64,000 nt of DNA from Curvibacter lanceolatus ATCC 14669 (GTDB taxonomy: Bacteria > Pseudomonadota > Gammaproteobacteria > Burkholderiales > Burkholderiaceae_C). The position numbers were made by a program, and so were the translations under genes. The stretch is from NCBI RefSeq assembly GCF_000381265.1, contig NZ_KB906272.1, positions 1 to 64,000 of the forward strand, in the 5' to 3' direction. This document shows, piece after piece, positions 14,775 to 18,806 of the stretch (the stretch's first letter is position 1; every line of letters starts with the position of its first letter). The notes below the pieces were generated by a model. It was not told the origin of the DNA. It ran no database searches and saw only the letters and a program-made list of their open reading frames with translations.

Positions 14775-16358
14775 ATGAACACCCCCACAGCCCCGATCGC
14801 CAACATCGCCCCGCCTGGACCCAGCTTCAACTTCGCCCAGCACCTGATCGAGCGCAATGCCGGACGCGGCAGCAAGACGGCCTACATCGACGACCAGGGC
14901 ACGCTGAGCTATGGCGAGCTGACCCAGCGCATCCGCCGCCTGGGCTCGGCCCTGCTGGCCAGCGGCGTGCGCCGTGAAGAGCGCGTGCTGCTGCTGATGC
15001 ACGACTGCAACGACTGGCCGGTGGCCTTTCTGGGGGCCATGCACGCCGGCATCGTGCCGGTGGCGGTGAACACCCTGCTGACGGCCGACGACTACGCCTA
15101 CATGCTCGAGCACAGCCGCGCCAGCGCCGTGCTGGTGTCGGCCGCACTGCTGCCGGTGCTGCAATCGGCCATGACCCGCGGCGAGCACGAGGTGCGACGC
15201 GTCGTCGCCTCGCGCCCCACCGCCCCCCTGGCCGAGGGCGTGCTCGACTTCGAAGCCTTTCTGGCCCAGGGCGAGGGCCATGCCGCACCCGCGGCCACCG
15301 GGCCTGACGACCCGGGCTTCTGGCTGTATTCCTCGGGCTCCACCGGGCGCCCCAAGGGCACGGTGCACCTGCAGGGCAACCCGTACTGGACGGCCGAGCT
15401 GTATGGCGGCCCGATCCTGGGCCTGCGCGAAGACGACATCTGCTTCTCGGCAGCCAAGCTGTTCTTTGCCTACGGGCTGGGCAATGCGCTGAGCTTCCCG
15501 CTCAGCGTGGGCGCCACCACAGTGCTGATGGCCGAGCGGCCCACGCCGGACGCCACCTTCCAGCGCTGGACCGAGCAGCGGCCCACGGTGTTCTTCGGTG
15601 CCCCGACCGGCTTTGCCGGCATGCTGAGTTCGCCCAAGCTGCCGTCACGTGATCAAGTGGCCCTGCGCCTGTGCTCTTCAGCGGGCGAGGCCCTGCCGGC
15701 GGACATCGGCGAACGCTTCACCCGCCATTTCGGGGTGGAGATCATCGACGGCATCGGCTCCACCGAGATGCTGCACATCTACCTGTCCAACCGGGTGGGC
15801 GCGGTGCGCTATGGCACCACCGGCACCCCGGTGCCGGGCTACGACATCGAACTGCGCGGCGAAGACGGCCTGCCAGTGGCCGATGGCGAGCCGGGCGACC
15901 TGTATGTGCGCGGCCCCTCGTCGGCCCTGATGTACTGGAACAACCGCGAAAAGACGCGCGACACCTTCCAGGGCGGCTGGACCAAGAGCGGCGACAAATA
16001 CCTTCACAACGCCGATGGCACCTACACCTATGCCGGGCGCAGCGACGACATGCTCAAGGTCAGCGGCATCTATGTGTCGCCCTTCGAGGTCGAGGCCACC
16101 CTGGTGCAGCACCCGGCGGTGCTGGAGGCTGCGGTGATCGGCGTGGCCGACGCCGAGGGCCTGACCAAGACCAAGGCCTTTGTGGTGCTCAAGCCCGGTC
16201 AGAGCTGCAGCGAAGATCTGCTCAAGGCCTTTGTGAAGGAGCGCCTGGCCCCTTACAAGTACCCGCGCCAGATCGAGTTCGTGGAGGAGCTGCCCAAGAC
16301 GGCGACCGGCAAGATCCAGCGCTTCAAGCTGCGCGAACTGGAAGCCTCGCGCCCATGA
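14775..16358 (+). CDS. bclA: Benzoate-CoA ligase
   Basis: Activates benzoate with ATP and CoA to benzoyl-CoA, the first step of the pathway. The 527-residue protein carries the AMP-binding motif YSSGSTGRPKGTVH, the aryl-CoA ligase acyl pocket segments (AAKLFFAYGLGNALSFP), EIIDGIGSTEMLHIY, and the C-terminal lysine motif KTATGKIQRFKLRE. The combination GIGSTEMLH and FFAYGLGN is typical of benzoate-CoA ligases. GGAG lies 7-10 bases before the ATG. The stop codon overlaps the start of the hydrolase gene (ATGA). Confidence 0.94.
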   Translation: MNTPTAPIANIAPPGPSFNFAQHLIERNAGRGSKTAYIDDQGTLSYGELTQRIRRLGSALLASGVRREERVLLLMHDCNDWPVAFLGAMHAGIVPVAVNTLLTADDYAYMLEHSRASAVLVSAALLPVLQSAMTRGEHEVRRVVASRPTAPLAEGVLDFEAFLAQGEGHAAPAATGPDDPGFWLYSSGSTGRPKGTVHLQGNPYWTAELYGGPILGLREDDICFSAAKLFFAYGLGNALSFPLSVGATTVLMAERPTPDATFQRWTEQRPTVFFGAPTGFAGMLSSPKLPSRDQVALRLCSSAGEALPADIGERFTRHFGVEIIDGIGSTEMLHIYLSNRVGAVRYGTTGTPVPGYDIELRGEDGLPVADGEPGDLYVRGPSSALMYWNNREKTRDTFQGGWTKSGDKYLHNADGTYTYAGRSDDMLKVSGIYVSPFEVEATLVQHPAVLEAAVIGVADAEGLTKTKAFVVLKPGQSCSEDLLKAFVKERLAPYKYPRQIEFVEELPKTATGKIQRFKLRELEASRP

Positions 16359-17167
16359 GCGTGCAGCACGTGTCCCTGGCCTGGAACGGGCGCCCGGTCG
16401 AGATCGAGATCGCCTGGATCCTCCCCGAGCTGAGCACCGCCCCGGTGATGGTGTTCCTGCACGAGGGCCTGGGCTCGGTGGCGATGTGGAAGGATTTTCC
16501 GCAGCGCCTGTGCCAGGCCCTGGGCTGGCGCGGCCTGGTGTATTCGCGCCCGGGCTATGGGCGCTCGACGCCGCGGCCGGTCTCGGAGACCTGGGGCCCC
16601 GACTTCATGCACCGGCAGGCCCGTGAGCTGCTGCCAGCCCTGCTGCAGGCCCTGGGCCTGAGCGGCCCTGAGGCGCCACCGCTGTGGCTGTTCGGTCACA
16701 GCGACGGGGGCTCGATCACCTTGCTGCACGCCTCCGGTGCATCCCCCAGCTTGAGCGGGGCCATCGTGCTGGCGCCCCACATCCTGGTGGAAGACATCTC
16801 GGTGCGCAGCATCGAAGTGGCCCGCCAGGCCTACGAAAGCGGCCCCCTGCGGGCCGGCCTGGCCCGCTACCACGACGACCCGGACTCGGCCTTCTGGGGC
16901 TGGAACCGTATCTGGCTGGACCCGGCCTTCCGCGACTGGAACATCACGGCCGAGCTCGCCCACATTCACTGCCCGGTGCTGGCCGTGCAAGGGCTGGACG
17001 ACGAATACGGCACGCTGGAGCAGATCCGGGGCATTGCGCGCCAGGCCCCGCAGACGCAGTTGCTGGAGCTGCCCGGCTGCGGCCATTCGCCCCACCGCGA
17101 CCAACCCGAGGCGCTGATCGCCGCCGTGCAGGCCTTTGTGAAGCAACAGCCGCTCAGGCCAGCGTGA
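16355..17167 (+). CDS. Alpha/beta hydrolase of the box operon
   Basis: A 270-residue alpha/beta-hydrolase fold protein: oxyanion region VFLHEGLGSVAMW, nucleophile elbow FGHSDGGS (Ser), acid QGLDDEYG (Asp) and C-terminal GCGHSPHRD (His). All three catalytic residues are present. Genes of this kind accompany box clusters in related bacteria, where a thioesterase or lactonase function has been proposed. Here it could hydrolyse dead-end CoA esters or lactones formed from the reactive epoxide, an inference from position. It is translationally coupled to the ligase by an ATGA overlap and its 3' end overlaps the convergent gene at 17154 by 14 bases. Confidence 0.85.
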   Translation: MSVQHVSLAWNGRPVEIEIAWILPELSTAPVMVFLHEGLGSVAMWKDFPQRLCQALGWRGLVYSRPGYGRSTPRPVSETWGPDFMHRQARELLPALLQALGLSGPEAPPLWLFGHSDGGSITLLHASGASPSLSGAIVLAPHILVEDISVRSIEVARQAYESGPLRAGLARYHDDPDSAFWGWNRIWLDPAFRDWNITAELAHIHCPVLAVQGLDDEYGTLEQIRGIARQAPQTQLLELPGCGHSPHRDQPEALIAAVQAFVKQQPLRPA

Positions 17168-18173
17168 GGGCGTCGAAAGACAGGTGGTGCATGAACTCCC
17201 GCAGGATCAGCACCCCGGCCACAAAGGCCTGGCCTTCGGGCAAGCCCTCGGCGATGGCCGGCCGACCTTCAGACACCGCGCAGACGCGGTTGAACAGGCG
17301 CTCCAGCGCGTCCAGGCTCAGGGTGTTGCCACCGCCGGCCTGCTCGACGATCTGGCGCAGCAGGGGGTCGGCACCGTGCAAGGCCGTGCCCACCGGCAGG
17401 CGCGGCACCAGGCGCATCAGCTCTTCCTCGACCTCGGCAATGGCGGCTTCGAGCTCGGCGGGCCGGGGCGGGTCATGCCGCCACAGGCGTTCAGGCAGGC
17501 TGAGCGTGCCCACAGGCCATTCAAGCGTCTGCGGCGCTTGCTCGCCGTCCCCCACCAGCACCTGGCACCGCTGCGACCCCAGTTGCAACAGGCTGATCAG
17601 CCGTGGCGGGCGGGGTGTGGGCAGGGTTTGCAACAGGACCTGCAGGCGGCGCAGGCCGGCATCGGCCTCGTAGCTGCTGCCCAGCGGGCGCAGCAGCGGC
17701 AGCAGTTGCTCGGGCTCCAGCGTGCGCGCCGCACCAAAGCCGGCGATGTGGCGGCCCCGCGTGGGGATGAGGCGCACAAAGCGGAAGTCGCCCAGTTCGG
17801 TCATGGGGGCCGCCTCGGGAAAGCGGCTCAGGTAGGCCGAGCGGCACAACTGCCAGTCGGCGTGGTCGGGGCCGTCTGGCTGCAGCACCTGGGCCTCAGC
17901 CTGCAGCGTGAGGCGCTGCAGATCGTGCACCGGCGCGCCAGCCACCTCGGCCTGCATGATCAGCAAAGACACCGCACTGCGGGCCTGCAGATGGCGCGTG
18001 TGGGCCGCCAGCGCACTCACGTGCAGCACCCCCCAGGGCCCGCCTGCGACCAGGGCAAAAGGCACCATGGACACAAAGGGCTCGCCCGTGTCGGTGCTGG
18101 TGCCCAGGGCGGCCACACGGCAGTCGGCCAGCAATTGGCGCAGCTCGCCATCGAGCCGGGACTCATGAGCCAT
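17154..18173 (-). CDS. PNPOx-like flavin split-barrel protein fused to a Ppx/GppA-like C-terminal domain
   Basis: A 339-residue protein in two parts. Residues about 5-150 match the pyridoxamine-phosphate-oxidase-like / HugZ split barrel (CRVAALGTSTDTGEPFVSMVPFA, LHVSALAAHTRHLQA, RFVRLIPTRGRHIAGFG). HugZ proteins bind FMN or haem. Residues about 190-339 resemble the second actin-like lobe of Ppx/GppA exopolyphosphatases: PVGTLSLPERLWRHDPP, LSLDALERLFNRVCAVS and GLPEGQAFVAGVLIL. The phosphate loops are degenerate (LQLGSQRCQ where DIGGGSTE is expected), so it is probably not an active phosphatase. The usual DUF2470 tail of HugZ is absent. The ATG at 18173 has GAGG eight bases upstream; an ATG at 18206 is the alternative. 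The domain assignment of the C-terminal half is by eye. Confidence 0.75.
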   Translation of the reverse strand: MAHESRLDGELRQLLADCRVAALGTSTDTGEPFVSMVPFALVAGGPWGVLHVSALAAHTRHLQARSAVSLLIMQAEVAGAPVHDLQRLTLQAEAQVLQPDGPDHADWQLCRSAYLSRFPEAAPMTELGDFRFVRLIPTRGRHIAGFGAARTLEPEQLLPLLRPLGSSYEADAGLRRLQVLLQTLPTPRPPRLISLLQLGSQRCQVLVGDGEQAPQTLEWPVGTLSLPERLWRHDPPRPAELEAAIAEVEEELMRLVPRLPVGTALHGADPLLRQIVEQAGGGNTLSLDALERLFNRVCAVSEGRPAIAEGLPEGQAFVAGVLILREFMHHLSFDALTLA

Positions 18174-18220: not shown

Positions 18221-18583
18221 TCAGCGCTCGGCGTGGTCGTGAAACAGGGGGTCGTCATGGCCGGCCGCCAGGGCACGGCGGCGCTGCACGTGATAGGCCG
18301 TCACCACCTGATGGGCCACCATGTCGAGAGAAGGTCGGTGATTGCCTTGCTTGTCGGTCCAGACCCGTGGCGTCAGGCTGCCCGACAGGGCCACCGAATC
18401 ACCATCGCCCAAGGCCAGCAGGCCATCCACCACCTCGGCGTCGAAAGCGATCACGTTCACGAACAGGTTCTCGCCTTCGCTGGCAGAGGCCCGCACCCGT
18501 GCCACCGCAAAAGGCTGGTTGTGCCGGTCGATACGCGACTCAGGGGCACCATGCAGTCGGCCACAAATCAATCCATCAATCAT
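18221..18583 (-). CDS. Single-stranded-DNA-binding-like OB-fold protein
   Basis: A 120-residue protein resembling the OB-fold of SSB: it opens MIDGLICGRLHG, then FAVARVRASASEGENLFVNVIAFD, and LGDGDSVALSGSLTPRVW. It lacks the Gly/Pro-rich linker and the acidic DDDIPF tail that recruit partner proteins in the main SSB, so it is likely an accessory ssDNA-binding protein. AAGGA before the ATG at 18583 supports this start. It sits 47 bases upstream of the split-barrel gene on the same strand. Function is inferred from fold only. Confidence 0.75.
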   Translation of the reverse strand: MIDGLICGRLHGAPESRIDRHNQPFAVARVRASASEGENLFVNVIAFDAEVVDGLLALGDGDSVALSGSLTPRVWTDKQGNHRPSLDMVAHQVVTAYHVQRRRALAAGHDDPLFHDHAER

Positions 18584-18806
18584 TTTTCTCAATCCTTGCA
18601 AGGCATGCGCCACCGCGCCGGTGCCACCCGATAGCTTACCCACATGGGCGCGCCCCAAAAGGCAACGCCGCTGAAGGCGGTGTATTTTTCAGTGTCGTCC
18701 GGGCTCTGGCACAATCGCGCCCGGACGGGCTGCCCACGCAGCCAGCATCCCCTGCCCGTGGCTCAGGCCTTCTGACGCCATGCCTCACAGCCTCTGGATA
18801 TACACC

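Follow-up and report, generated by a model that had tools for sequence, protein, structure and literature searches.

The locus raises two questions: why a HutZ/HugZ-like split barrel is joined in Curvibacter lanceolatus to a single second lobe of the Ppx/GppA type, and what such a half-lobe might do at the place where relatives of HugZ carry a DUF2470 domain. The window was a stretch of 64,000 nucleotides from contig NZ_KB906272.1 of C. lanceolatus ATCC 14669, and the coordinates below refer to it.

The fusion gene and its N-terminal barrel

The fusion gene was one uninterrupted ORF of 339 codons on the minus strand, which began with ATG at 18173 and ended with TGA at 17154. The features of the locus are as follows.

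17154–18173, minus strand: fusion gene (HutZ/HugZ-like split barrel and single Ppx/GppA-type second lobe), 339 amino acid residues
17685–18173, minus strand: N-terminal HutZ/HugZ-type split barrel, residues ~1–163, with H58 and R87 aligned to His63 and Arg92 of HutZ
17604–17678, minus strand: linker, residues ~166–190
17157–17603, minus strand: C-terminal half-lobe, residues 191–339, homologous to the second lobe of Ppx/GppA, with the metal/phosphate loop residues lost
17562–17585, minus strand: QLGSQRCQ, relic of the DIGGGSTE loop of Ppx, residues 197–204, with its Asp and Glu replaced
17184–17201, minus strand: REFMHH, the RExx(H/Q)H motif of the half-lobe family, residues 325–330
18221–18658, minus strand: SSB-like gene upstream of the fusion gene after a gap of 47 bp (PF00436, 7.7e-6)
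16355–17167, plus strand: convergent alpha/beta hydrolase gene, which bounds the locus and shares its last 14 bp with the fusion gene

The SSB-like protein was small, its PF00436 score was 26.4 bits against a cut-off of 26, and its gene is possibly cotranscribed with the fusion gene. The closest named relative of the fusion protein was that of Curvibacter gracilis with an identity of 93% (L001). Among the fusions of the genus, the linkers varied in both sequence and length.

The preliminary description had read the N-terminal half as a HugZ/PNPOx split barrel, and this reading was borne out by Pfam, AlphaFold and Foldseek. Residues 8–142 matched PNPOx_N of Pfam (E 6.2e-11) and residues 5–159 matched the HutZ model of NCBIfam (E 4e-20), yet the score of 72.2 bits fell short of the equivalog cut-off of 225; the score for the HugZ equivalog was 24.9 bits, under its cut-off of 240. 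His245, the haem ligand near the C-terminus of HugZ, falls beyond the stretch of these models that could be aligned. The sequence matches of the barrel in the PDB were PA4388 (2arz), Pden_1323 (6vna) and HutZ (3tgv). AlphaFold modeled residues 1–160 with pLDDT block means of 83–96. When this model was used in Foldseek, the top matches were PA4388 and the haem proteins MSMEG_6519 and At3g03890, with HugZ and HutZ lower down; the rmsd over longer alignments was ~10 angstrom, so the match is confined to the barrel. An FMN-dependent PNPOx was considered as a candidate identity, but the best fold matches were instead mostly haem-type members.

By sequence alignment, H58 and R87 are the equivalents of His63 and Arg92 of HutZ, for both of which a numbering offset of 11 was inferred, and neither residue varied among the 21 barrel sequences compared. 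His63 and Arg92 are described as the residues docked to haem in HutZ, where the Soret peak moved slightly in the single mutant H63A and did not move in R92A (PMC3472187). The evidence from H58 and R87 is tempered by this modest role of either residue singly. The barrel looks closer to the haem-type than to the flavin-type members, and its cofactor binding is putative. Similar to HutZ of Vibrio cholerae, which is a haem storage protein (PMC3472187), the fusion protein possesses the barrel and the equivalents of His63 and Arg92. Different from HutZ, however, it contains an extra C-terminal lobe and scores below the HutZ cut-off, and no HutX was found in the Curvibacter genome. Barrels without the lobe were widespread: the barrel profile matched 91 of the 399 genomes of the same taxonomic family (E ≤ 1e-20).

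Homology and conserved residues of the C-terminal half-lobe

Residues 205–338 matched the Ppx-GppA profile (PF02541) from position 126 to position 268 of 285 (E 9.7e-4), with a score of 19.1 bits that lay under the curated cut-off of 27. As the match began at profile position 126, it covered the second lobe only and not the two lobes of the phosphatases. In all, 86 distinct half-lobe ORFs were collected from 81 loci, of which 72 passed the score and length limits and 48 of these 72 were included in an alignment (A2). The copy of G399, which is split by a stop codon, was kept outside A2 and the tree, and L023 and L154 were excluded from the Ppx alignment owing to their DIGGRS sequence.

Comparison by hhalign of the 48-row half-lobe family with 28 Ppx/GppA rows gave a probability of 97.2% (E 4.7e-11) over 154 columns, which begin at the DIGGGSTE strand and continue through the rest of the lobe. 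The probability was 97.5% against the second lobe of Ppx/GppA alone and 0.1% against the first lobe alone, and it was still 97.0% after the fused rows were taken out. Of the controls, the reversed alignment gave 0.8%, the barrel alignment 0.1% and the best of 20 column shuffles 12.2%. Scanned singly, 28 of the 48 members matched PF02541 (E ≤ 0.1; best 3e-7), while the other Pfam families listed in the same scans, four in number, were matched by a single member each; the exopolyphosphatase model TIGR03706 was matched by 13 of the 48 (E ≤ 0.01). Within the limits applied, no Pfam or NCBIfam model dedicated to this family was matched by any of the 48. Moreover, the half-lobe family profile weakly picked up proteins with Ppx phosphate loops (L200, L201, L203 and L204). 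Given the single-member scans and the hhalign results with their controls, the weak Pfam match of the C-terminal half is not due to chance. Judged from these alignments, the C-terminal half is a true homologue of the second lobe of Ppx/GppA, and of the second lobe alone. It had been proposed to be such a lobe at the usual place of DUF2470, and the profile comparison agrees with that proposal; no Pfam match to DUF2470 was found in the fusion protein at E ≤ 10.

The structural model was less informative for this half. In the AlphaFold model of the whole protein, the segment 184–269 had a pLDDT below 50. A second AlphaFold job for the lobe, with only four C-terminal sequences in the input alignment, gave a mean pLDDT of 44. 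This second model drew three strands followed by helices, which is compatible with the second lobe of Ppx, and the fourth strand was not drawn. Given this low confidence, the mechanism suggested below stays inferred.

The Asp and Glu residues of DIGGGSTE are predicted metal ligands in Ppx/GppA, and hydrolysis in MTB-PPX1 implicates Arg84 and Glu112, both of which precede Asp135 (PMC3411833). In the Curvibacter fusion, the Asp and Glu columns of the metal loop read Q197 and Q204; the preliminary description had noted that the phosphate loops are altered. In A2, D was found in the Asp column of 4 of 48 rows and E in the Glu column of 0 of 48, compared with 28 of 28 each in Ppx/GppA, and the two residues occurred together in none of the 72 half-lobe relatives. 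The Arg and Glu residues for hydrolysis are absent from the fusion protein because they lie in the missing first lobe. Thus, the C-terminal half shares a homologous second lobe with Ppx/GppA (PF02541) but differs from it by lacking the first lobe and the catalytic residues and by possessing new conserved residues.

These new residues were strongly conserved. Among the 72 rows, E242 was found in 70, A244 in 71, I245 in 70, E249 in 70, E291 in 72, R325 in 72, E326 in 69, H330 in 69 and H329 in 64 (with Q in 5), and the Ppx columns aligned with these residues showed no such conservation. The motif RExx(H/Q)H was present in 69 of the 72 rows as well as in all 12 loci from the order-wide search, 2 of which were from the same taxonomic family. 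The counts for the family were taken over 72 rows, as A2 happens to exclude the members that lack the signature and its 48 of 48 overstates the invariance.

Two of the 72 rows, L102 and L106, belong to one subgroup; they have Gln at E242 and E249 and lack E326, H329 and H330. L107 and L110 of the same subgroup, which fell below the score or length limits, also lack the signature, and L202 from the class-wide search lacks both E242 and RExx(H/Q)H. These five relatives may differ from the rest in function. The third of the 72 rows without RExx(H/Q)H was L078, whose reading frame diverges ahead of the motif. The joint loss of E242, E249, E326, H329 and H330 suggests that they form one site or one salt-bridge network.

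The half-lobe is thus a coherent family with its own constraints, which is degenerate only as a phosphatase and is not a decaying phosphatase. In the best explanation, this family derives from the second lobe of Ppx/GppA, in which the metal/phosphate site was lost and new acidic and histidine residues became fixed. The locus thereby exposes an unnamed and conserved single-lobe family derived from Ppx/GppA and shows that one half of such a two-lobe phosphate enzyme is able to persist alone with new conserved residues. It also cautions against annotating such half-lobe proteins as exopolyphosphatases.

Possible role of the half-lobe

DUF2470 provides a precedent for an extra domain on a PNPOx-like barrel (PMC11014987). 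Haem is bound at the barrel in HugZ, ChuZ and MSMEG_6519; DUF2470 is considered to shield part of the haem pocket in HugZ and serves partner recognition in GBP, while Dri1, which is a DUF2470 domain alone, binds haem through zinc-bound histidines (PMC11014987). Similar to HugZ, ChuZ, MSMEG_6519 and GBP, the fusion protein combines a split barrel of the same type with an extra domain; different from them, its extra domain is the Ppx/GppA half-lobe instead of DUF2470. As the half-lobe occupies the place of this haem-linked domain, the fusion is a testable hint to its role. The half-lobe is probably a non-catalytic binding module at the place that DUF2470 holds in HugZ relatives. The best explanation for the whole protein, which we consider to have about an even chance of being correct, is a HutZ/HugZ-type barrel carrying a lobe derived from Ppx/GppA as a non-catalytic binding or shielding module. 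The dimeric barrel would bind haem, or another flat cofactor, between its subunits. By analogy with DUF2470 in HugZ and GBP, the half-lobe may act as the non-catalytic binding or shielding part, and its conserved residues would bind a metal or a partner protein, and not polyphosphate or (p)ppGpp.

A possible but unlikely alternative is that the lobe is itself a metal- or haem-binding domain that uses E242, E249, E291 and RExxHH, and hence a new enzyme or sensor. These residues were kept in nearly all rows (69–72 of 72) and not at the aligned Ppx columns, and E242, E249, E326, H329 and H330 were replaced together in L102 and L106, as the residues of one site would be. However, residues that form a protein interface or a network of buried salt bridges would also vanish jointly. 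Compared with the 48 rows, the recount over 72 rows made the invariance slightly weaker, and the joint loss slightly favours a shared site; on balance, the likelihoods of these readings were kept. If the free-standing Ppx/GppA lobe had gained a new metal or haem site and been joined with it to a haem-type barrel at the DUF2470 position, the fusion would represent a second, unrelated two-domain solution to haem handling, which we consider unlikely.

The barrel-less half-lobes look like stand-alone genes, many of ~150–190 amino acid residues, and some of the neighbouring genes recurred. Among the 78 of 81 loci with gene calls, a LysR regulator was found at 33 loci, a LigB-type dioxygenase at 19, TctC receptors at 19, an Abhydrolase_2 esterase at 17, an F420_oxidored-type reductase at 13 and DoxX at 10. 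The names came from a Pfam scan of one representative per cluster and cover mainly the larger clusters. These neighbours suggest redox or aromatic stress, not phosphate metabolism, and no haem-use gene was found among the scanned recurring neighbours of the barrel-less half-lobes. In several of these loci (L084, L085, L079, L105, L144 and others), the neighbours of the half-lobe included a divergent LysR gene and genes that encode an F420-type reductase, DoxX, SnoaL, LigB dioxygenase and Abhydrolase_2; the recurring genes are a possible stress operon.

No homologue of ppx, ppk or relA/spoT was found in the flanks of the 81 half-lobe loci, which were 4–19 kb long with some ending early, by tblastn with the proteins of the Curvibacter genome itself (E ≤ 1e-8). 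Two Rel queries were effective in this search, as the query for one of the three Rel places was probably in a wrong frame (884 amino acid residues compared with an open frame of 763). The Curvibacter genome encodes a complete Ppx with a DIGGRSTE loop, ~3 kb from Ppk and on another contig than the fusion gene. One Rel place was on the contig of the fusion gene, but ~78 kb away.

These results bear on two further readings. In one, the half-lobe would partner or regulate a full-length Ppx by replacing its second lobe in a mixed dimer, with the barrel as a passenger. The single-lobe paralogue and the presence of a complete Ppx both in the Curvibacter genome and in G114 fit this arrangement, which the missing ppx linkage at 81 loci nevertheless renders doubtful. 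In the other, the C-terminal half would still bind polyphosphate or (p)ppGpp and connect the barrel with either the stringent or the polyphosphate response, as was suggested in the preliminary description, which had proposed sensing by the lobe and a link between flavin or haem and these responses. Sensing of polyphosphate or (p)ppGpp by the half-lobe is unlikely because the phosphate loops, the first lobe and any linkage to ppk, ppx or rel are all missing. Although the homology to the second lobe of Ppx/GppA is genuine, the absence of the paired metal-loop Asp and Glu from all 72 relatives, the absence of the first lobe, the 81 loci without linked ppk, ppx or rel and the complete Ppx kept near Ppk elsewhere in the same genome make the coupling quite improbable, and neither part of the earlier suggestion is upheld.

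Distribution of the half-lobe and origin of the fusion

With a four-row profile (E ≤ 0.001), the C-terminal half was matched in 82 of the 399 genomes of the same taxonomic family, although the weakest of these matches (E up to 4.5e-4) are doubtful; the matches in G104, G138, G197 and G291 are outside the set of loci. The 81 loci consist of 79 places, including that of G399, plus L021 and L022. The barrel was present only at the 5 fusions and absent at the other 76 of the 81 loci. Beyond the taxonomic family, the C-terminal half was matched in 13 of 200 genomes of the order (3 of the 13 being from the same taxonomic family), 9 of 274 of the class and 9 of 299 of the phylum, where the class and phylum counts include phosphatases, as L203 and L204 (class) and L200 and L201 (phylum) carry Ppx loops. 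No barrel was found at the 12 order-wide loci within flanks of 1.5 kb.

Within the genus, both halves were found in line in 5 of 9 genomes (G000, G194, G331, G268 and G399), G389 had the barrel alone and three genomes had neither half. The check named in the preliminary description, whether relatives keep both halves, was thus answered positively for four other genomes of the genus. The barrel-only gene of G389 had the same two neighbours, the SSB-like gene and the hydrolase gene, which places the gain or loss of the lobe at this locus. In a quick tree, the fused C-terminal halves, which made up 4 of the 48 rows, occupied one side of a branch with an SH-aLRT of 97. The HutZ/HugZ-type barrel, which stands alone in many genomes of the taxonomic family, would have gained a C-terminal copy of the single lobe in the Curvibacter lineage, probably once.

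The dN/dS values of the C-terminal half were 0.149 for G194 and 0.160 for G399, and those of the N-terminal half were 0.220 and 0.174. For the distant G331 and G268, they were 0.445 and 0.359 for the C-terminal half and 0.471 and 0.603 for the N-terminal half, values that are less telling as dS is near saturation. The fusion copy of G399 contained an in-frame TAG within the C-terminal half (L135:3714-3716), which is either a sequencing error or a sign of a pseudogene. Although the PF02541 match of the C. lanceolatus protein lies under the curated cut-off, a frameshift, assembly error or chance resemblance is scarcely credible as the source of the join, given the single ORF, the presence of the fusion in four further genomes, the dN/dS values of both halves, which are well under 1, and the hhalign controls.

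An obligate partnership between separately encoded barrels and half-lobes was considered and not supported: they were not neighbours in the 81 loci, and their co-occurrence was weak (23 of 395 genomes with the fused ones removed, Fisher p 0.09). With the fused genomes kept, both were found in 27 of 399 genomes (Fisher p 0.018); as the genomes are related, these p values are indicative only. Since the separate genes are not neighbours and co-occur weakly, the partnership between barrel and half-lobe may be local. Spread by viruses or plasmids was likewise not supported: one scan of viral contigs revealed no relative, and among 14 plasmid records with a match, the sole match to the C-terminal half was in a doubtful record, L191. 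This record (NZ_AP026896.1) is labelled as an Aeromonas caviae plasmid, and its size of 4.94 Mb suggests a mislabelled chromosome.

In the titles and abstract openings returned by a literature search, which ran largely without subscription journals, nothing was found on the fusion or on the half-lobe family. The barrel and the phosphatase lobe are of known kinds; their pairing and the single-lobe family vary these kinds in a new way. Finally, one genome (G230, locus L066) contained two full copies of the half-lobe and a third partial copy within ~12 kb.
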